This document shows positions 5,974 to 43,240 of a stretch of 45,498 nucleotides of DNA, piece by piece; the first letter of the stretch is position 1; each line of letters opens with the position of its first letter. The DNA comes from a virus. Location of the stretch: the IMG/VR virus record IMGVR_UViG_3300030339_000077, positions 1-45,498 of that record. One strand, given 5' to 3'. The notes beneath the pieces were generated by a model. It had not been told where the DNA came from. It searched no databases and worked only from the letters and a program-made list of their open reading frames with translations. The position numbers and the translations under genes are program-made.

Positions 5974-6009
5974 CTAAGGTACGGGGAGGCATGGGGGCGG
6001 GAAAGGACA
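5974..6009 (-). promoter_or_regulatory. Late-type promoter 2 (tape measure)
   Basis: TGTCCTTT (minus strand, 6002-6009), 20 nt, TACCTTAG (5974-5981), then 15 A-rich nt to the tape-measure ATG. It shares both boxes and the exact spacing with six other sites. The promoter separates tail genes from the upstream non-structural islet. Confidence 0.65.
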
Positions 6010-6078
6010 GTTTTGAGAGGGGGTGAGGGTGAGAAGGGGTGAGGGGGAGAAAGGGAGAGAGGGAGAGGGGGTGAGGGT
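6010..6078. repeat. Polypurine tract behind promoter 2
   Basis: Plus-strand GTTTTGAGAGGGGGTGAGGG and further GGGTGAGGGGGAGA-type units directly upstream, in minus sense, of the tape-measure promoter. The joint AAAGGACAGTTTTGAGA is nearly the same at 63-79, so tract and promoter may have been copied together. Confidence 0.7.
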
Positions 6079-6121
6079 AGAGACGCACGGCCGTGCGTCT
6101 CTACAAATCGCACCCGGGGTT

Positions 6122-6376: not shown

Positions 6377-6547
6377 GTTAAGGCGATTTTAAGGACCCGG
6401 CAGCGGGTCGCCAAACCATACATCCAGTTACACAAAGTAAGCAAGAAGTTGCTGCCGGGTAAGGCCTTAACTTATGCATTTGTGCAACTGAACTGAAATA
6501 TATGGTTTGGCGACCCAAAAGTAATAAAAAATATGGTTTGGCGACCC
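6377..6547 (-). promoter_or_regulatory. Nested inverted repeats and 16-mer operators
   Basis: Directly upstream of the 84-aa gene start: GTTAAGGC (6377-6384) pairs with GCCTTAAC (6464-6471), and inside it ACCCGGCAGC (6395-6404) pairs with GCTGCCGGGT (6451-6460). GGGTCGCCAAACCATA at 6405-6420 recurs inverted as TATGGTTTGGCGACCC at 6501-6516 and again at 6532-6547; the last two are 31 bp apart, about three helical turns. This could be a structured leader plus operator array. Confidence 0.65.
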
Positions 6548-6562
6548 GTGTGTTTTTAGAAA

Positions 6563-6841
6563 TTATTTTTTGTCACTGTATTTTTTCATTGCCACCATCA
6601 CTTCATGTGGATTGAAAAAGCATTTGCGAGCAACCTGTATATAAGGGATAATACCTTCGTTTTTGTACCGCTGCGCGGTGGCTATACTCACATGCAAAAA
6701 ATCGGAAAGTTCGCGGATGGAGTGAATCATTCGCGGTTCTGGATCTGGTGTCTCAATAGTTTTTATTCCATTTAGTCCTTCGATTACCGCTTGCCGAACG
6801 ACTTCGGCGAGTTTGTTTTCGTCAATTTGAATTGTCAACAT
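6563..6841 (-). CDS. DUF3853-like helix-turn-helix protein, copy 1
   Basis: A 92-residue protein with a MerR/excisionase-like winged HTH in its C-terminal half: IRELSDFLHVSIATAQRYKN, then IIPYIQVARKCFFNP and a final MKKYSDKK. It matches the pattern of DUF3853-type small DNA-binding proteins of Bacteroidota mobile elements. The product at 37992-38264 is a paralogue with the same core and the same terminal tail. The 16-mer repeats just downstream could be its targets (inference). It could serve as excisionase or as a local regulator. Confidence 0.8.
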   Translation of the reverse strand: MLTIQIDENKLAEVVRQAVIEGLNGIKTIETPDPEPRMIHSIRELSDFLHVSIATAQRYKNEGIIPYIQVARKCFFNPHEVMVAMKKYSDKK

Positions 6842-6855
6842 GGCTTAATATTTAA

Positions 6856-7113
6856 TTATGGTTTTTTGATTTTTTTGAGATAACCACGCAAAGCGCTAAG
6901 TGCCCTGCTAATTTCAATGGCATTTTTGAATTCAACCTTTTGGGTATCATCCATCGTGTCGTTGATGTAGCAAATAGCGTCGGCCAATACTTCCAAATTG
7001 CATTCTAAAAAATCGTTATTTGCATTCTGAAATCCTTTGAGTGTGTTGATTGCGTCTTCGGTTAAAACAACACCTTCGATAATCATTGCTGGTTTTGTTT
7101 CTGAATTTTTCAT
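6856..7113 (-). CDS. Small conserved phage protein, paralogue of 186-443
   Basis: An 85-residue product sharing length and pattern with the gene at 186-443: IIEGVVLTEDAINTLKGFQ near the N-terminus and EISRALSALRGYLKK near the C-terminus. Function unknown. It lies between the antirepressor and the HTH gene, with only 14 nt to the latter, so these are probably one operon. Confidence 0.75.
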   Translation of the reverse strand: MKNSETKPAMIIEGVVLTEDAINTLKGFQNANNDFLECNLEVLADAICYINDTMDDTQKVEFKNAIEISRALSALRGYLKKIKKP

Positions 7114-7158: not shown

Positions 7159-7192
7159 CCCCGGTTAGCGTTCTAGCGCTACCGGGGTTTTT
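7159..7192. terminator. Stem-loop at antirepressor stop
   Basis: CCCCGGTTAGCG (7159-7170) pairs with CGCTACCGGGG (7177-7187), with one bulge, overlapping the antirepressor stop codon. On the plus strand it is followed by TTTTT (7188-7192); on the minus strand by GCAAGTTTAAAAATT, so it may work in both directions. Confidence 0.6.
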
Positions 7193-7959
7193 GATTTATA
7201 TAGATCAACCAGTTTAAGGTTGATTTTTTCAATTTCTGCCTCACGCTCTTTGGTTCGAAGTTTCAATAGCTCTTTTTTGTAACCTTCTGGCATTGGGTTT
7301 TCTTCTGGTTGGCTCGCTTTACGCTGATAAAGAAGCAGGCATTTATACTTACTAATAGCAGACTGGTAGTTCTTTTTTAGGCGCAACAGATCGGTAATAT
7401 CGTTTGGTAATTCGGATGCGATTGCTTTTAGCCCATCGGCAACTTCGGGCATACGTTTTTCTTCAGTAAGGGTTGGTTTAATTTGTGCCCATTCGGTTGG
7501 TTCATAACTCAAACACAAATCGCGGTGACGTTTCTGCTCTGCAATATATTCCATTACCTGGTCTCTAATGCTTAATGCACTGTTGATATTTAGTGCATAT
7601 GTGCGAATGTCTTCGAGTTGCGAAATTTTTGACTCGTTTCCATTGTACAGGTAATTGAATATCGCAACCTGGTATTCAATAAATAATTTCTGCAAATGAG
7701 GGTGCACAATCTCGGCATTTATTATCTGTATCCACCGAATAAAACCCCTCCTACCCACACATAACCTTAATCTTTTGTCGCCAAAAGCTAACTCGTGGTA
7801 CTTTTTTGTACCCTCACTTTGCAAAATTGGATCTTCTAAAAATCTTCTTTTTTGACTTTTAAAATTAATTCCGAAAAATTTACATACCGGTTCAACAAAA
7901 ATACTTCCATCATCATTGATAATAAGTGTTCTTAATGCGCTTTCTATACTTTTTTCCAT
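7165..7959 (-). CDS. Phage antirepressor (P22_AR_N type)
   Basis: A 264-residue protein. Residues about 8-115 carry the P22 antirepressor N-terminal pattern: VEPVCKFFGINFKSQKRR, DPILQ, a basic strand RLRLCVGRRGFIRWI, and the helix around HPHLQKLFIEYQVAIFNYL. Such proteins inactivate phage repressors by binding them. The C-terminal third is a charged helix with NPMPEGYKK and REAEIEKI, a module also present at the end of the 306-residue product at 21121-22041. It is divergent from an RHH repressor gene across a 179-bp region with repeated AATACT sites, an arrangement like P22 immI (ant with arc/mnt). Confidence 0.85.
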   Translation of the reverse strand: MEKSIESALRTLIINDDGSIFVEPVCKFFGINFKSQKRRFLEDPILQSEGTKKYHELAFGDKRLRLCVGRRGFIRWIQIINAEIVHPHLQKLFIEYQVAIFNYLYNGNESKISQLEDIRTYALNINSALSIRDQVMEYIAEQKRHRDLCLSYEPTEWAQIKPTLTEEKRMPEVADGLKAIASELPNDITDLLRLKKNYQSAISKYKCLLLYQRKASQPEENPMPEGYKKELLKLRTKEREAEIEKINLKLVDLYKSKTPVALER

Positions 7960-7987
7960 AATCTAAATGAATAAATAAATTACAGTA

Positions 7988-8031
7988 CAAATATACAATA
8001 GTATTTCTAATAATGTCTAAGAAATACTATT
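7988..8031 (-). promoter_or_regulatory. Antirepressor promoter and operator
   Basis: On the minus strand TATATTTG (7988-7995) is a perfect Bacteroidota -7 box reading towards the antirepressor start. Immediately upstream lies a 12-bp inverted repeat, AATAGTATTTCT (7997-8008) and AGAAATACTATT (8020-8031), which occupies the -33 region and contains the AATACT core in both orientations. A repressor bound here would block transcription of the antirepressor. Confidence 0.65.
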
Positions 8032-8065
8032 TATTTTTAAAAAATAACAAAGATTTTTTTTTATG

Positions 8066-8124
8066 CTTTTAGAATGTATTTTTTAGATGTATATTTGTAA
8101 TACTTTATAATACTCAGAAATACT
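8066..8124 (+). promoter_or_regulatory. RHH repressor promoter with phased AATACT sites
   Basis: TATATTTG (8090-8097) is a perfect -7 box; CTTT (8066-8069) sits 20 nt upstream. Straight after it AATACT occurs three times at 8099, 8109 and 8119, spaced exactly 10 bp, covering the predicted start of transcription. Ribbon-helix-helix dimers typically bind such phased short direct repeats, so autorepression is likely. Confidence 0.7.
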
Positions 8125-8138
8125 TTTAAATATCAAAT

Positions 8139-8306
8139 ATGGTAAAAGAAGCAACAAGCCTAAAACTTGATAAGCATGTGATGGACAGGCTTAGACAAGA
8201 GGCAAAAAAACAAAATCGATCCATCAATAATTATATGGAGACTGTTCTGATTCAATATTTTGAGAAAATGGATCAAAAACAAGAAACAGAAAACCCTGGT
8301 GAATAA
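8139..8306 (+). CDS. Arc/Mnt-like ribbon-helix-helix repressor
   Basis: A 55-residue protein. MVKEATSLKLDKHVMDRLR gives a short N-terminal strand (TSLKL) followed by two helices (DKHVMDRLRQEAKKQNRS, then INNYMETVLIQYFEKM), the pattern of Arc/CopG-type ribbon-helix-helix DNA-binding proteins in which the strand inserts in the major groove. Length fits the family. It stands alone on the plus strand, divergent from the antirepressor, behind a promoter carrying three phased AATACT repeats. I infer it represses itself and the antirepressor. Confidence 0.8.
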   Translation: MVKEATSLKLDKHVMDRLRQEAKKQNRSINNYMETVLIQYFEKMDQKQETENPGE

Positions 8307-8323
8307 CCAGGGTTTTCTGTTTT
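8284..8323. terminator. Bidirectional terminator between convergent genes
   Basis: A 17-bp perfect stem (8284-8300 with 8306-8322) around a 5-nt loop. The centre is AACCCTGGT-GAATA-ACCAGGGTT, and both sides end in A/T-rich TTTTCTGTTT-type arms. It overlaps the stop codons of the RHH gene (+) and of the 37-aa membrane gene (-), so it closes both convergent units. Confidence 0.85.
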
Positions 8324-8435
8324 AAATAAGATTAAAGTATTTGAGCAAGGCAAATATTATCAGAAATATTGTGCCAACTACAATATTTGTAAGTATCCTG
8401 CGCTTAAAGCGTTTTTGCCAATTGTGTTGGTACAT
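8322..8435 (-). CDS. 37-aa single-pass membrane protein
   Basis: A short frame of 37 codons: basic N-terminus (MYQHNWQKRFKRR), then one hydrophobic segment (ILTNIVVGTIFLIIFALL) and a short tail. It starts 5 nt after the stop of the 201-residue membrane protein gene and ends within the convergent terminator, so it sits neatly in the transcript. The composition, positive N-terminus and hydrophobic core, makes it credible, but its short length limits confidence. Confidence 0.5.
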   Translation of the reverse strand: MYQHNWQKRFKRRILTNIVVGTIFLIIFALLKYFNLI

Positions 8436-8440
8436 ATAAC

Positions 8441-9046
8441 TCAGTTTTTTGTGATTACTCTTATTAATCTATTTCTTACTGAATTAGCTGTTTGCATCGC
8501 ATTACTACCCTCAAAAGAAAAAATAGTAGAGTGATTAAACCTTTCATTTGTCCATTGAATTGTTACAAAGGAAAGTTCATTTTTTTTCTTTTTTCTCCAT
8601 GCTAAAGCAAAAATACCCACTAAAAATACTCTTCCAAGCGTTACTTTATTTTCTATTGTGGCTGCATCTTCTATTAAAATTTCTTTAATAGAAATCAAGG
8701 GTATTGAGCCCTTATAAACAGGATATAAACTTTTACTTGAATCTGCAATGATTAAATCTTCATTCTTCTTATAAACCTTGCAATGTTGAATATTATTATC
8801 TATTGATGGATGTCCACCAACATATGCACCTACTTCAATAAAATTAGTAGAATCAATTCCTGCTTTTTTCATCCTTTCCTTATCCTTTTTATCTTTAGCG
8901 TTTCCACTAATAGTTAGATAAACAATGAGTAAGGTAAAAATGAGAAGGTAAAACCAAAATAGCCAAGTAGTATGGTAATCTCCTTGGGCATCTTCTTCAC
9001 ATGAATAAAGAAAAAATAGTAGAATAGTTGGAAGTAGTTTTTTCAT
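8441..9046 (-). CDS. Membrane-anchored putative lipoprotein (moron)
   Basis: A 201-residue protein with a hydrophobic N-terminus ending in LYSC, a possible lipobox, followed by a second hydrophobic segment (residues about 28-48, FWFYLLIFTLLIVYL) and a cytoplasmic or periplasmic beta-rich domain with another hydrophobic patch (GRVFLVGIFALAWRKKKKN). Function unknown. It is more AT-rich than the structural genes around it and belongs to a non-structural islet, so I read it as a moron, possibly acting at the envelope (inference). Confidence 0.65.
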   Translation of the reverse strand: MKKLLPTILLFFLYSCEEDAQGDYHTTWLFWFYLLIFTLLIVYLTISGNAKDKKDKERMKKAGIDSTNFIEVGAYVGGHPSIDNNIQHCKVYKKNEDLIIADSSKSLYPVYKGSIPLISIKEILIEDAATIENKVTLGRVFLVGIFALAWRKKKKNELSFVTIQWTNERFNHSTIFSFEGSNAMQTANSVRNRLIRVITKN

Positions 9047-9697: not shown

Positions 9698-10213
9698 TTA
9701 CGTTGGTATATCAACTTCGAGGTTCCATTTTAGCGGATCGACATCGGTTGTATAAGGTGAAACGATTGTATAGGTGCAGCGGATGCCATAATCCTGGCTA
9801 AAAGTGTTATTGATCAGGGCAATTTCTACCGTGTTCAGATCGAAATCGCGGACTGCCTTTGCCAACGGATTACGTTTGTCGTTCTTGATACGGGCAATCA
9901 TGTCATCACAAATCGACTCCATATTGTCCCAGATTGTGTTCATGGCGTCAAAATCGCCTGCATCACTTAGGTGATCAATCAATATAAATGCGCCTGTACG
10001 CTCCTTCAGAACATTATCGCTCAACTGATCTTTTAGTTTATATCGGTATCCTTCCAATATCAATGCCGGGTAATTGATATCTTTCAGGTTTGTAAGTACT
10101 TCTTCCAGTTCCATGCGGTAGAAATGTTTCTCGTTTGCGCTGTGGCCTATCGCATTGTGCTGCGCAGCCAGGGTGCGGAAATACTGTATTAAATCGGAGA
10201 ACTTAGATTGCAT
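9698..10213 (-). CDS. Putative head-tail connector / tail terminator protein
   Basis: A 171-residue protein encoded between the DUF6712-like/273-aa genes and the gp10-like gene. Its alternating strands (YPALILEGYRYKL, GAFILIDHL, VEIALINNTFSQDYGIRCTYTI) followed by a C-terminal NLEVDIPT resemble small tail-terminator type proteins. I do not recognise a named family with certainty. Position and size support a head-tail joining function. Confidence 0.55.
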   Translation of the reverse strand: MQSKFSDLIQYFRTLAAQHNAIGHSANEKHFYRMELEEVLTNLKDINYPALILEGYRYKLKDQLSDNVLKERTGAFILIDHLSDAGDFDAMNTIWDNMESICDDMIARIKNDKRNPLAKAVRDFDLNTVEIALINNTFSQDYGIRCTYTIVSPYTTDVDPLKWNLEVDIPT

Positions 10214-10260
10214 GATATTATATTTTAAAAAATTTCACGAATTAGAACGAATTAGACGAA

Positions 10261-11082
10261 TCAAGCCTTACGGGCATTTTCTTTGTATTTATTAGTCAGG
10301 TACCGGAAGACGGTATGCACCGACAGTTCGGCGTATTTATCCCTGTTTACCAGGTCATCACCTACCAGCGAATTGAATAGTTTTATCCAGGGGGAAGGGC
10401 GAGAGGGTGATTGAGAGACGGGGTGAGGGGGAGATGGGGTTTCGGTCGATGCCTGAAATATCAGCGGGTAGGCTTGTTGCAGCCACATTAGGATCAAACC
10501 ATAATTGAACGCAATCGCCTGCCGGGTTTCAATATCAATGTTAGCAATCGTCAATACCCGGGCGGAGGTGGTAGCATGGTCAAATTTTTCACCGGGTAAC
10601 ATATACAGTGTAGCAACGAGGTTATTGAGTAGGGGCGATCCTGCGTGATCGTCCTTACTCAATAACCTACCCGTCTGTTCGCCATTTTTACCCGTACGGG
10701 CGGTGGACATCCAATCATTGTAATACGAATCGGCAAAAATGAATTGGCCGAAGGTCATCCCTTCTAATTTTGGTTTTGGGCAAATGAATTTGGTGCCAGG
10801 CAGCTCGCGGATGATAAACGCGTTGTGCACATTGCCTGCCCTGGCCACAAACTCAATCCCTTCCGATAGTTTCAATAATTCGTAAGGAGATAGTTTTTTC
10901 AGCAGGCTTTGGTTAATGCCAGTAAGAACCGACAGAAACCGATCGTCGGGTTCGGCGCCATTGATCATTCGCGAGATGGCAATAAACTGGCGTTCGGTAA
11001 GCTCACCCCAGCTGGTGGGGGCTTTGCCGGTGGCGGTTCGTTTAAAGATCAGGAAGGGATATGTGATTGAGATATCTATCAT
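10261..11082 (-). CDS. Phage structural-operon protein with in-frame inserts
   Basis: A 273-residue protein of unknown precise function between the adaptor and connector genes. The N-terminus (SWGELTERQFIAISRMI, then LTGINQSLLKKLSPYELLKL) is conserved-looking and helical. Two insertions interrupt it: a 46-bp palindrome at 10621-10666 translated as about 15 residues including KDDHAGSP, and a polypurine tract (about 10385-10440) translated as a Ser/Pro-rich linker (TPSPPHPVSQSPSRPSPW). Frame is kept through both, so the gene is probably functional. A tail-assembly or connector role is inferred from place only. Confidence 0.6.
   Translation of the reverse strand: MIDISITYPFLIFKRTATGKAPTSWGELTERQFIAISRMINGAEPDDRFLSVLTGINQSLLKKLSPYELLKLSEGIEFVARAGNVHNAFIIRELPGTKFICPKPKLEGMTFGQFIFADSYYNDWMSTARTGKNGEQTGRLLSKDDHAGSPLLNNLVATLYMLPGEKFDHATTSARVLTIANIDIETRQAIAFNYGLILMWLQQAYPLIFQASTETPSPPHPVSQSPSRPSPWIKLFNSLVGDDLVNRDKYAELSVHTVFRYLTNKYKENARKA
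10621..10666. repeat. Palindromic element inserted in frame
   Basis: GTTATTGAGTA (10621-10631) pairs with TACTCAATAAC (10656-10666), enclosing GGGGCGATC-CTGCGT-GATCGTCC. The centre matches the GGGCGATC elements at 2658-2679 and 11104-11125. Here it lies inside the 273-residue gene without breaking its frame. Confidence 0.75.
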
Positions 11083-20590: not shown

Positions 20591-21137
20591 GTACTTTTAA
20601 ATCAAAATTAAAGACTTCCTTGTCGGTGAAAATCGTTCCGCGCTCGAGCTTCGGATTGTCGGTGGCGTTCTGGCTCGTCACGATGCTGATTTTCCAATTG
20701 TCGTTCCAGAGCAGTGCCACTTTTGCATGTACCGACATGCAACGGTAATTGAAGCTCGTGGCAATCATCTGGAAGGGTTTTGGACTCATCACCCTTACAC
20801 GATTATCGAGTATCACCCTGAATGAAAGAATTTCGCCTTTGCTGATCCTGTTCTGGAGCTGCTCGATGCTTTTTGTGCTGAATGAATATGATGTCATCAG
20901 TACATTTACGGGTCCTGTTTGCTTTATCAGGTAGGAAATCAACCGTACCAGGTTAAAATTGCCCCAACTGTAATAATGATGCTCCCTTCCATTTTCGATC
21001 TGACCAATTGCTCTGGTAAGCGCTTTTTCGGTATCAGCAATAAAGAAGGGAGTACTACCACCCTTCTTTAAGCTGATATCTTCCACGTTGCCTTCACTTG
21101 ATGGAGAAACGGCAATATCTTTACTTCTTAGCAGCAT
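20559..21137 (-). CDS. Phospholipase D-like superfamily protein
   Basis: A 192-residue protein with one PLD-type half: SVHAKVALLWND places H137 and K139 of an HxK motif, followed by SQNATDNPKLERG with S155, N157 and E165, the usual second part of the motif. The N-terminal half has strands (VNVLMTSYSFS, SFRVILDNRV) that fit the first lobe without its HKD. Single-HKD members work as dimers and include nucleases. A palindrome is inserted near residues 20-35 (21032-21078). It overlaps the 306-residue gene by 17 bp. Nuclease or structural use near the terminase is inferred. Confidence 0.6.
   Translation of the reverse strand: MLLRSKDIAVSPSSEGNVEDISLKKGGSTPFFIADTEKALTRAIGQIENGREHHYYSWGNFNLVRLISYLIKQTGPVNVLMTSYSFSTKSIEQLQNRISKGEILSFRVILDNRVRVMSPKPFQMIATSFNYRCMSVHAKVALLWNDNWKISIVTSQNATDNPKLERGTIFTDKEVFNFDLKVLENEFQRGTT
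21032..21078. repeat. Palindromic element inserted in frame, second type
   Basis: TATCAGC-AA-TAAAGAAGGG (21032-21050) pairs with CCCTTCTTTA-A-GCTGATA (21061-21078) apart from a small bulge, around a 10-nt loop. It encodes part of the PLD-like protein (around SLKKGGSTPFFIAD) and keeps its frame. Confidence 0.7.
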
Positions 21138-22041
21138 TCAGCGCCGACAGTTTCAATAACAATTCTTCAATTTTCTCAATTTCAGCATTCCGCTCTGCCA
21201 TCCGCATTTCGATCTTTTTGCGCTTGGTACCTGCCGGCATCGGGTTTTTCTCGGGCAGACGTTTTTTAGCCTGGTAATCGAGAATTGTCTGATCTTTCGA
21301 ATTAGAGCTTTGCAGGTTTTTGATCTGCCTTTTCATCCCGGCTTCATCAAGTGGTTGTTCCGGTTCTGGCTTTACTTCGGCTGGAAATACCTCCTTTTCG
21401 TTGGGGACGATTCCTTTTTTGTCGAATGCTTCCTTCTTTTCGAACAGAAATTCAAGCCTTTCGGACAGCGCTTTGATCACATCAAAGATCTCGGCACGCT
21501 TGGTGCAAACTGCATCTGCATTCGATTCGGGCATTTCGGCCATTACCGCGTGCATTTTATTTCGCTCCTGGAACAATTGCGCATATTCGTGAATCACCCT
21601 GCGAATAACTGCCGGGTATTCGGTGAGCGGTTTTGTTGCGATCGATTCCGCAGGATCGAGGGGGAGATCGGGAGAGGGGGTGAGAGGGAGAAGGGGTGAC
21701 GGGGAGAGAGGGAGATCGGGAGCATTCATTAATGTTTTTCCAATTTCACGGGCAGATTCAACCAATTCAGATAATTCTTCACCTATATGATGAAGCTCTG
21801 GTTCCGTCACGGGTTCATCCTGTACATTGGAAATAAATGCCCGCCAGTTCGAAAAGTCTGCCACCTTTGCGGCTTTACATATTTCGTAGGACAGTTTATC
21901 ATGGTTGATTTTATTTTCCCTCGCCATAAATTGGGATGAAAAATAAGATTTGCCTGAAATTGCAACCAGTAAAGCGATTCCGTCTGCGTAAATCATCCCG
22001 GATCTGATCCAGTCGATTACTTTGTTTTGATTTTCATTCAT
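21121..22041 (-). CDS. Hypothetical protein sharing C-terminus with antirepressor
   Basis: A 306-residue protein. Residues 1-90 form a helical domain (DWIRSGMIYADGIALLVAISGKS, SYEICKAAKVADFSNWRAF). Residues about 108-135 are a Ser/Pro/Leu linker encoded by a polypurine tract. The rest is a long charged coiled coil ending in NPMPAGTKRKK, AERNAEIEKIEELLLK, which matches the end of the antirepressor at 7165-7959 (NPMPEGYKK, REAEIEKI). A partner-binding or oligomerisation tail shared by both proteins is a reasonable inference. Function unknown. Confidence 0.6.
   Translation of the reverse strand: MNENQNKVIDWIRSGMIYADGIALLVAISGKSYFSSQFMARENKINHDKLSYEICKAAKVADFSNWRAFISNVQDEPVTEPELHHIGEELSELVESAREIGKTLMNAPDLPLSPSPLLPLTPSPDLPLDPAESIATKPLTEYPAVIRRVIHEYAQLFQERNKMHAVMAEMPESNADAVCTKRAEIFDVIKALSERLEFLFEKKEAFDKKGIVPNEKEVFPAEVKPEPEQPLDEAGMKRQIKNLQSSNSKDQTILDYQAKKRLPEKNPMPAGTKRKKIEMRMAERNAEIEKIEELLLKLSALNAAKK
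21655..21722. repeat. Polypurine tract inside coding sequence
   Basis: Plus-strand GAGGGGGAGATCGGGAGAG and similar units, in frame within the 306-residue gene as a Ser/Pro/Leu linker. It has the same orientation as the four other tracts of this window. Confidence 0.7.
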
Positions 22042-37991: not shown

Positions 37992-38264
37992 TTATTTATC
38001 GCTGTATTTTTTCATTGTCGTCATTACGTCGACCGTGTTAAACATGCACTTACGCCCAACCTGGATATAAGGAATGATATCATCGTTTTTGTAGCGCTGC
38101 GCGGTGGCAATACTTATATGCAGGAAATCGGCCAGTTCTTTAAGCGAATGCAGGTAGTTGTCTTTTTCGGGAGCTGCTACAGTTTTCTGAGCGGCCATCT
38201 CTTCGCGGATCACTTTCCGAAATCCTTCAGTTAATTGTTGAATGTCTTTTTCTTCTAAATTCAT
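37992..38264 (-). CDS. DUF3853-like helix-turn-helix protein, copy 2
   Basis: A 90-residue protein whose C-terminal half is the winged HTH LKELADFLHISIATAQRYKN, then IIPYIQVGRKCMFNT and a final MKKYSDK. It is the paralogue of the product at 6563-6841 with the same core and tail but a different N-terminus (IQQLTEGFRKVIREEMAAQK). The close link with the methyltransferase and small membrane genes suggests a regulator of the early operon or an excisionase. Confidence 0.8.
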   Translation of the reverse strand: MNLEEKDIQQLTEGFRKVIREEMAAQKTVAAPEKDNYLHSLKELADFLHISIATAQRYKNDDIIPYIQVGRKCMFNTVDVMTTMKKYSDK

Positions 38265-40500: not shown

Positions 40501-41034
40501 TTAAAGGATCCCTAATCTGTGCGCCCGCAGTGCTATTTCGATGCGGTTATTCACCTGGAGTTTTTCGTGGATACGGGCGAAGTAGGTGCGGCAGGTCGCT
40601 TTAGTAATATTCAGGGCTGTGCTGATTTCTTTATCGAGTTTACCTAAAGCGGTTAATTTCACTACCTGAAACTCTTTTGGGCTGAGATGATCGGGGAGGA
40701 GACACACTTTGCCGCAACCGGGGCAATGGTTGATAAAATCGCAGGCCGGAGCATCGGGGTAAGTTTTGTTGCCAACCAGGTCAGGTTTTTCGTTGATAGC
40801 GCCATAACGGCAGGCCACGAATTTAAGTTCCATTTCTTCGGGAAGGATATATCCCATTTGGCGGAGTTTTACAATAACCGAGTGGTCCTTGTTCATCTCA
40901 TCGCGGAAAATCTGGCGGGTTTCGGTAGGAAGTGCTGTGTAGTCGCTGGGGACTCCGCTTTTCAATACCCGAAGGTTATTTTTTGTATCGAGATAGATTT
41001 CGAATTTGTTCTCGAGAATTACTGAAATGTTCAT
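40501..41034 (-). CDS. LuxR-type HTH regulator with zinc-ribbon motif
   Basis: A 177-residue protein. The C-terminus (residues 116-177) is a LuxR-type HTH: HLSPKEFQVVKLTALGKLDK, then EISTALNITKATCRTYFARI and HEKLQVNNRIEIALR. Before it are Cys 98, 104, 107 and 111 (CPGCGKVC type), a possible zinc-binding centre. The N-terminal 90 residues do not match a receiver or autoinducer domain. A zinc-dependent or redox-sensing activator of phage genes is possible; it could be the factor for the TGTCCTTT promoters (speculative). Confidence 0.75.
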   Translation of the reverse strand: MNISVILENKFEIYLDTKNNLRVLKSGVPSDYTALPTETRQIFRDEMNKDHSVIVKLRQMGYILPEEMELKFVACRYGAINEKPDLVGNKTYPDAPACDFINHCPGCGKVCLLPDHLSPKEFQVVKLTALGKLDKEISTALNITKATCRTYFARIHEKLQVNNRIEIALRAHRLGIL

Positions 41035-41266: not shown

Positions 41267-41345
41267 ATTGTTTCTGTGTTGTGTTTGTATTACATTTGTG
41301 ATGTTGATACAATACAAATGTATAGTATTATTACGCCACTTGTAT
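41267..41345. promoter_or_regulatory. Divergent switch region, face-to-face promoters
   Basis: TACATTTG on the plus strand (41291-41298) and the same string on the minus strand (41315-41322) are perfect -7 boxes pointing at each other, so their transcripts would overlap. TACATTTGT (41291-41299) pairs with ACAAATGTA (41314-41322). TTGTAT/ATACAA hexamers occur at 41285, 41307, 41312 and 41340 and could be repressor half-sites. Confidence 0.55.
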
Positions 41346-41394: not shown

Positions 41395-41760
41395 ATGGAC
41401 ACGACTATGAATCAACGCCTTAAAGAATATCTTGAAGAGAAGAAAATTTCTGCTGTAGATATTTATTCGAAAATCGGGGTTTCACGCATGGTTTGGTCAC
41501 AATGGATGAATTCGGGCACGCCAATTCCGCTATCTAGATTAATCTCAATAGTCGAATTATTGCCTTTACTGAATGTGCGCTGGCTGATGACCGGCGAGAT
41601 TAAAAATGGTGAGGGAGAAATTGTAGAATCGCACCAGGGAGAGTGCGCTGCATGTGCAGCAAAACAACTTCAAATTGATGTACTGACAGATCACAATAAC
41701 ACATTAAAATTACGTACTGAAGACCTTCAAAGCATGATAAATTTGCTACAAAAAAAATGA
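41395..41760 (+). CDS. CI-like repressor (XRE-type HTH)
   Basis: A 121-residue protein with an N-terminal HTH: RLKEYLEEKKISAVDIYSKI, GVSRMVWSQWMNSGTPIPLS, RLISIVELLPLLNVRWLMTG, the standard five-helix XRE arrangement ending in the NxxWLLTG-type motif. A Cys-containing ECAACAAKQ and a C-terminal coiled coil (VLTDHNNTLKLRTEDLQSMI) follow; no LexA-like protease. It is probably the lysogeny repressor, divergent from the Cro-like gene, and precedes the integrase. Confidence 0.8.
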   Translation: MDTTMNQRLKEYLEEKKISAVDIYSKIGVSRMVWSQWMNSGTPIPLSRLISIVELLPLLNVRWLMTGEIKNGEGEIVESHQGECAACAAKQLQIDVLTDHNNTLKLRTEDLQSMINLLQKK

Positions 41761-42004: not shown

Positions 42005-43240
42005 ATGAACTACTCAGTAAAATTTTATCCCGAAAAACGAAATGGCATTACCAAAAATGTGCCCGTAATATTATCGGTATCCTGGTCCGGTAACAGGCTT
42101 TTTTATTATACCGGCCGGCGGTGCAACATCGATGATGATCCGGCAAAAAGTCAATGGAATGCGGAGAAAAACGAATTGAAACGTAATCAGGTAGCGCACG
42201 ATGGCAAAACATCCGTACGTTTTAACAACGATTTAACGAAAATACGGGCAAGTGTAAATGATCTTTTTGAATTGTACAGTGTTTCAAAATTGACACCTTC
42301 AGTATCACAATTGCGCAACGATTTAAAACTTAAATTAGGAAAAGAGATAAAACCAAACCCCGCCTATGGTTTCTTCAAAAGTTTCGATCAATATATAACC
42401 GATGGCCGTCAAAGTGAGAATCGGAAAAAATGCATTCGCACAGTTTATAACTGCATGAAAATATACGCCCCGGATGTGACATTTGATAGTCTGAATGTGA
42501 AAGATTTTAAACAATACTTGATTGATCAGAAAATGAGCAGCAATTCGATTGTCGAATACCTTTCTAAACTCAGAGCATTTATCAATTGGGCAAATAAAGA
42601 AAAGCTAACAACTGTTAAATCTTTTGACGGTTTCGATGTCGGGAGCGGAATTTACGGTGAACCAGTTTATATCACCGTTGCAGAGCGCGATATATTATTT
42701 TATGCAAACATTGAAGACAAATTCTTTTCAGAAATTCGCGACATATTTGTATTACAATGCCTACTTGGTTGTCGATACGGCGATCTAATGCGGTTTCGCA
42801 AGTCAAATATTCTCGACGGATGTTTGCAATATATAAACGAAAAAACTAAAAAAGAACAAACACGCGTAATAAAAGTGCCTCTTTGTGACAAGGCAAAAAC
42901 AATTATTTCGCGTTATAATCTTCCGGATGATCGTTTGGTACCTTTTATATGGTTGTATTATTTTAATATTAATGTAAAAACACTTTTCAAAGATTTAAAA
43001 ATAAATCGAAAAGTCTCAATACGCGACAATGAAACTGGCTTGGAAGTACAAGTTGAAATCTGCGATATCGTGAGTTCCCACATGGCGCGTCGTTGTTTTA
43101 TCGGAGGCATGCATAAAAAGGGTGTACGAAATGAAATTATTGCATCAATGAGTGGACATGTTAAAGATAGTAAAGCATTTGTCCGGTATTATGCGATCGA
43201 CAATGAAGAGCAGGAAGCAGCCATGAAATTAATTGAGTAG
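42005..43240 (+). CDS. int: Tyrosine recombinase (phage integrase)
   Basis: A 411-residue integrase. The N-terminus (MNYSVKFYPEKRNGITKNVP) is the strand-rich arm-binding domain found in Bacteroidota integrases; residues about 110-200 form the SAM-like core-binding domain (YLIDQKMSSNSIVEYLSKLR); the catalytic part has Arg in LLGCRYGDLMRFR (about 255), SSHMARRCF (HxxR, about 357-361), SGHVKDS (His near 384) and the nucleophile Tyr in VRYYA (about 394). It integrates and excises the phage genome. It ends before a strong terminator. Confidence 0.93.
   Translation: MNYSVKFYPEKRNGITKNVPVILSVSWSGNRLFYYTGRRCNIDDDPAKSQWNAEKNELKRNQVAHDGKTSVRFNNDLTKIRASVNDLFELYSVSKLTPSVSQLRNDLKLKLGKEIKPNPAYGFFKSFDQYITDGRQSENRKKCIRTVYNCMKIYAPDVTFDSLNVKDFKQYLIDQKMSSNSIVEYLSKLRAFINWANKEKLTTVKSFDGFDVGSGIYGEPVYITVAERDILFYANIEDKFFSEIRDIFVLQCLLGCRYGDLMRFRKSNILDGCLQYINEKTKKEQTRVIKVPLCDKAKTIISRYNLPDDRLVPFIWLYYFNINVKTLFKDLKINRKVSIRDNETGLEVQVEICDIVSSHMARRCFIGGMHKKGVRNEIIASMSGHVKDSKAFVRYYAIDNEEQEAAMKLIE

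Follow-up and report, generated by a model that had tools for sequence, protein, structure and literature searches.

The window, that is the whole 45.5-kb virus record analysed here, carries a tyrosine integrase gene (42005-43240) and, as the preliminary description of this DNA had stated, a ribbon-helix-helix (RHH) gene and a P22_AR_N-type antirepressor gene on opposite strands. The former (8139-8306, plus strand) encodes an Arc-like protein of 55 residues, the presumed local repressor, and the latter (7165-7959, minus strand) a divergent P22_AR_N protein of 264 residues, the presumed antirepressor, with 179 bp between the two genes. The RHH protein matches an Arc-like repressor in PHROG (E 3e-5), and phrog_582 is matched by 11 of the 12 members of the family assembled below. 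Its AlphaFold model (pLDDT 84.7) has as its best solved-structure match the Arc-operator complex 1par (probability 1.00, Foldseek E 0.056, TM 0.69/0.73), and model and match together give it the RHH fold of the Arc/Mnt repressors. The 264-residue protein scores under the cutoff against Pfam P22_AR_N (E 1.9e-6, 28.5 bits, cutoff 30.7). It also matches the PHROG family ‘anti-repressor Ant’ (E 3e-6), and a profile-profile comparison aligns its residues 14-107 with the classical P22_AR_N proteins found at related loci (probability 92%, E 6e-7); both comparisons support the P22_AR_N relationship, for which the Pfam score by itself stays below the cutoff. A P22_AR_C domain was not found in the antirepressors, which have no Pfam match past the N-domain, and the AlphaFold model of the window antirepressor (pLDDT 62.7) is too poor for a fold match. 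Elsewhere in the window a 306-residue protein (21121-22041, minus strand), for which neither a Pfam nor a PHROG family was found, has its C-terminal ~78 residues in common with this antirepressor (46% identity, E 7e-14), in a helix-rich stretch around an ENPMPxG turn.

Searches with the antirepressor and the RHH protein gave a comparison set of 12 non-redundant loci, 11 on viral contigs and one in a Prolixibacteraceae MAG. The divergent arrangement of an RHH gene and an antirepressor-type gene is kept in all 12. The partner is a divergent P22_AR_N protein in five (the window, L005, L006, L007 and L016), a classical P22_AR_N protein in three (L033 and L034, above the Pfam cutoff at E 1e-17 and 8e-19, and L047, so classed by inspection) and a KilA-N protein in four (L032 and L036, Pfam E 1e-18 and 1e-14, and L046 and the MAG locus L037, so classed by alignment with the L032 and L036 proteins). 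As the KilA-N proteins display no profile similarity to the window antirepressor, exchange of the one for the other is between unrelated proteins. The PHROG and Pfam annotations of the partners are those of antirepressors, and the P22 locus of the same layout makes one; we therefore predict that the partner is probably an antirepressor of a prophage repressor. It is unlikely that it is instead a DNA-binding or host-takeover protein, possibly lethal, which the RHH protein silences in the lysogen, even though the names KilA-N and P22_AR_N rest on few studied members and the slot accepts proteins as dissimilar as the KilA-N and window proteins.

The region between the divergent genes contains two identical octamers TATATTTG, one at 7988-7995 (minus strand) for the antirepressor promoter and one at 8090-8097 (plus strand) for the RHH promoter. 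Both have the form of the -7 element of Bacteroidota promoters, in which TAnnTTTG stands at -7 and TTTG near -33 (PMC7366714). The TAnnTTTG box is present on the antirepressor side in 12 of the 12 loci and on the RHH side in 11, and both boxes are in place in 10, compared with 0.007 expected from shuffling. The octamer taken alone occurs in the window about as often as chance would give (3 seen, 3.35 expected), so that it draws its weight from its conserved position. Directly after the RHH box lie three AATACT sites (8098-8127, plus strand) starting at 8099, 8109 and 8119, at steps of exactly 10 bp, a presumed autoregulatory operator. Just upstream of the antirepressor box is a 12-bp inverted repeat, AATAGTATTTCT-N11-AGAAATACTATT (7997-8031, arms at 7997-8008 and 8020-8031), the presumed antirepressor operator. 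All of this, the paired boxes, the exact 10-bp steps and the inverted repeat of the AATACT core, had been noted in the preliminary description and was found again here.

The five AATACT cores in a 182-bp stretch were matched in none of 20,000 mononucleotide shuffles, and any hexamer repeated three times at 10-bp steps occurred in 28 of 20,000; the perfect 12-bp inverted repeat by itself is weaker evidence (38 of 2,000). Within the window the tandem unit AATACTNNNNAATACT, allowing one mismatch at most, is restricted to the 8098-8127 region (2 matches, 0.17 expected). In related loci the RHH box is again followed directly by tandem repeats of 10 bp built on an AATACT-like core, and identity at a lag of 10 bp over five loci is 53/100 against 32.8 +/- 4.3 in shuffled sequence (0 of 20,000 shuffles); the sites are clear in L046 and L047 and poor in L033 and L034. 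The arm AATAGTATTTCT is kept in L032 (KilA-N) and L034 (classical P22_AR_N), beside a different antirepressor in each case, and on the antirepressor side of L034 three AGTATT/TGTATT units stand at 10-bp steps. Half-sites about one helical turn apart are present at both promoters and conserved across loci, as candidate operators.

Loci in which the partner differs bear on what recognises these sites. L006, L047 and L037 have RHH proteins that are 81-90% identical and operator DNA that is 86-96% identical, combined with three different antirepressors of 1-24% identity, namely two distantly related P22_AR_N types and an unrelated KilA-N protein. Conversely, the KilA-N genes of L036 and L046 are homologous, and their 5' leaders are nearly identical, but they stand with RHH proteins whose recognition strands differ (KAITVD and TSLKMD) and operators that differ too. 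Over the 12 loci a partial Mantel test associates the operator with the RHH protein given the antirepressor (r=0.45, p=0.0016) and not with the antirepressor given the RHH protein (r=-0.29, p=0.998). These comparisons support inheritance of the operator with the RHH gene and not with the antirepressor gene, part of which may come from the physical linkage of RHH gene and operator; since, in addition, operator and RHH correlate weakly in a plain Spearman test (0.155, p=0.21), co-inheritance supports rather than proves the reading of these sites as RHH targets. Given the fold, the site geometry and this co-inheritance, the RHH protein is likely the local repressor of both promoters. A trace of partner replacement itself is likely preserved in L036, where a 73-residue remnant of a divergent P22_AR_N protein (8239-8460, minus strand; E 2e-16) lies beyond the RHH gene and the working partner is KilA-N. 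That the antirepressor is exchangeable while the RHH gene and operator stay is the main point that goes beyond the preliminary description.

The RHH gene ends in a hairpin with a 17-bp stem and T-rich flanks (8284-8322) that is placed over its stop codon; 9 of the 12 loci have a GC hairpin in this position over the stop codon, where it would act as a terminator. This organisation bears on the proposal that the RHH protein is the antitoxin of a toxin-antitoxin pair, for which weak Pfam matches to ParD/CopG antitoxins and, by inspection, the apparent proximity of RelE-like genes to distant RHH relatives in Sphingobacterium could be cited. We regard that proposal as very improbable: the RHH gene is divergent, transcribed alone and has its own hairpin, all 12 loci pair it with a P22_AR_N or KilA-N gene, and neither RHH nor antirepressor has a PADLOC match. 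A type II toxin-antitoxin assignment was rejected on gene order, the RHH gene standing alone and divergent in all 12 loci and not in one operon with its partner.

Downstream of the antirepressor gene are a common companion of the module, an 85-residue gene (6856-7113, minus strand) with no Pfam match, HMM matches of which adjoin the module in L005, L036 and L046, and a 92-residue HTH gene (6563-6841, minus strand), DUF3853/HTH_17-like at scores below the Pfam cutoffs. Both small genes are paired in the window, the first by a second 85-residue protein (186-443) and the other by a further DUF3853-like HTH gene (37992-38264), the antirepressor operon holding one member of each pair. A 17-bp GGTCGCCAAACCATA-type repeat occurs three times at 6404-6548, twice in direct and once in inverted orientation, in the gap that separates two small genes downstream of the antirepressor, and has no other copy in the window; a G/A-rich 8-bp tandem array followed by a 28-bp perfect palindrome (5999-6104) lies just upstream of the tape-measure gene. 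On the other side, convergent with the RHH gene, is a gene for a 201-residue putative lipoprotein or membrane cargo protein (8441-9046, minus strand; by inspection), a homologue of which occupies the same place in L047; other loci have DUF4468 secreted proteins. A gene near the L047 module (9901-10881, minus strand) resembles a reverse transcriptase by eye.

In 11 of the 12 loci the module lies shortly before a gene of the tape-measure type, recognised either from homology or from length and position; the exception is L016, where it follows the terminase gene. It lies within the structural (late) gene block, in a region that varies between relatives, as does P22 immI. The preliminary description had treated this placement among tail genes as a peculiarity; it is not odd, because P22 immI also lies within a late operon. 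A survey of relatives found with the tail-completion and tape-measure proteins shows the junction between these two genes to be empty (6-152 bp) in L086, L092, L093, L103, L119, L120 and L127, and to hold 1.3-4.7 kb of unrelated cargo in others. Among this cargo are candidate defence genes: a KAP NTPase scores as the PADLOC candidate PDC-S49 (E 3.5e-224), and a HepT/nucleotidyltransferase pair is accompanied by a CAAX-protease-like gene. Alternative occupants (KAP NTPase, HepT pair and unassigned antisense genes) are seen in L068 (5238-7145), L070 (4764-6337), L069 (6714-8791), L112-L114 and L121. Empty and otherwise filled junctions indicate that the module is one occupant of a cargo hot spot. 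They also speak to whether the switch serves mainly to gate late genes, the hairpin stopping late transcripts and the RHH-controlled antirepressor promoter driving the tape-measure gene onward. The hairpin, which stands between the antirepressor and the tail genes upstream of it, and the position of 11 of 12 modules directly upstream of the tape-measure gene would suit such gating; it is nevertheless improbable, as related phages with an empty junction do not require it and the L016 module sits after the terminase gene.

The L037 locus in the Prolixibacteraceae MAG links the module to Bacteroidota, which are probably the hosts of the phage. Integrase matches in all six viral records of the set above 40 kb, plus one of 27.6 kb, indicate that the phages are probably temperate. 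A first scan of genome contigs found no relative, and an RHH scan found one clear relative, that in the MAG. In the class and order samples the RHH family is rare: apart from the MAG (E 5e-29) there were weak matches alone, in 2 of 395 genomes and in 6 of 295. Searching a phage collection by tblastn with the antirepressor and with an RHH consensus returned no match. Ant and KilA-N genes do occur in Leef_1, a cultured Polaribacter phage, but there they belong to the early region. A search of the literature outside most subscription journals found no account of such a module.

A second regulatory switch lies at 41 kb. It was over-read as a CI/Cro switch in the preliminary description: an XRE-type gene (41395-41760, plus strand) diverges not from a Cro gene but from a LuxR/GerE-type gene (40501-41034, minus strand; E 4.6e-12). 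TAnnTTTG boxes are found in this switch at 41291 (plus strand) and 41322 (minus strand). There is no second tandem operator in the window and none near the 41-kb switch, thus no sign that the RHH protein controls it. As an integrase gene, often together with an XRE gene, is present in related phages, immunity in two layers is plausible, and the co-occurrence of module and XRE gene makes the 41-kb XRE protein a possible target of the antirepressor.

Taking the architecture, its conservation, the partner exchange and the hot spot as read from the compared sequences, and predicting from them DNA binding, repression, termination, antirepression and the antirepressor's target, we favour the view that the module is a portable, immI-like ‘ant moron’. 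During lysogeny the RHH protein would bind the AATACT half-sites at both promoters: binding to the 10-bp tandem, which covers the start of its own promoter, would give autoregulation, and binding to the inverted pair that closely precedes the -7 box of the antirepressor would shut the antirepressor off. When the RHH protein is absent or titrated, during infection or after induction, the antirepressor would be made and would inactivate a prophage repressor, the likeliest candidates being the XRE-type repressor of the phage itself, that of a resident relative, or both, while the hairpin at the RHH stop codon would separate the module from the late transcript. RHH gene and operator make up the unchanging portion; the antirepressor behind them switches between P22_AR_N and KilA-N types, and the cassette is housed in the cargo junction upstream of the tape-measure gene. 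More tentatively, one Arc-like repressor with its operators and terminator-like hairpin might form an insulated cassette into which antirepressors are swapped close to the -7 box; related temperate phages might thereby possess a second immunity that evolves fast and can be directed at different resident or superinfecting prophages. The natural swap sets, L006/L047/L037 and L036/L046, make both operator recognition and antirepressor targeting directly testable, and the junction before the tape-measure gene is marked as a cargo and defence hot spot of these phages.

The best-known cases of immI-type secondary immunity are those of the P22-like phages that infect enterobacteria. In P22 immI, or the ‘ant moron’ (mnt, arc, ant, sar, sieA), an RHH repressor gene diverges from the antirepressor gene inside the late operon, in a variable moron-like region that an accessory membrane gene adjoins (PMC2629481, PMC8022706). 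The module of the window resembles it in having an Arc/Mnt-family RHH gene beside and divergent from a presumed antirepressor gene, inside the late genes and with a putative accessory membrane gene nearby. It differs in that a single RHH gene, where P22 has Mnt plus Arc, lies between the tail-completion and tape-measure genes, the antirepressor is without P22_AR_C, the promoters are of the Bacteroidota type, the site precedes the tape-measure gene in a different phage group, and KilA-N types replace the antirepressor behind the same RHH gene and operator. By analogy, the module would resemble P22 immI in its working; with neither a second RHH gene nor P22_AR_C, it is not a member. Of the immI-like switch first proposed, the core, an Arc/Mnt-like repressor and an antirepressor with shared operators, is well supported by conservation over 12 loci. 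As to the Arc/Mnt repressors themselves, the 55-residue RHH protein has Arc as its best fold match and its candidate half-sites are one helical turn apart, but about one quarter of its residues are identical to Arc in the structural alignment, and its candidate operator core is AATACT. P22_AR_N and KilA-N are both listed as members of a domain-swapping network (PMC10111431), and members of this ‘Bro network’ fill the antirepressor slot here, though in these loci the unit of exchange is the entire gene, the changeover falls close to the -7 box, and the repressor and operator in front remain constant. The Gifsy and Fels prophages likewise have an antirepressor gene outside the primary immunity region, one that is able to act across prophages (PMC3121763); those antirepressors are small proteins, LexA-controlled in Gifsy, whereas here control would be by a dedicated RHH repressor. 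What the present module adds is an immI-type arrangement in another phage group and at a different junction, in which the antirepressor is exchanged while repressor and operator stay.
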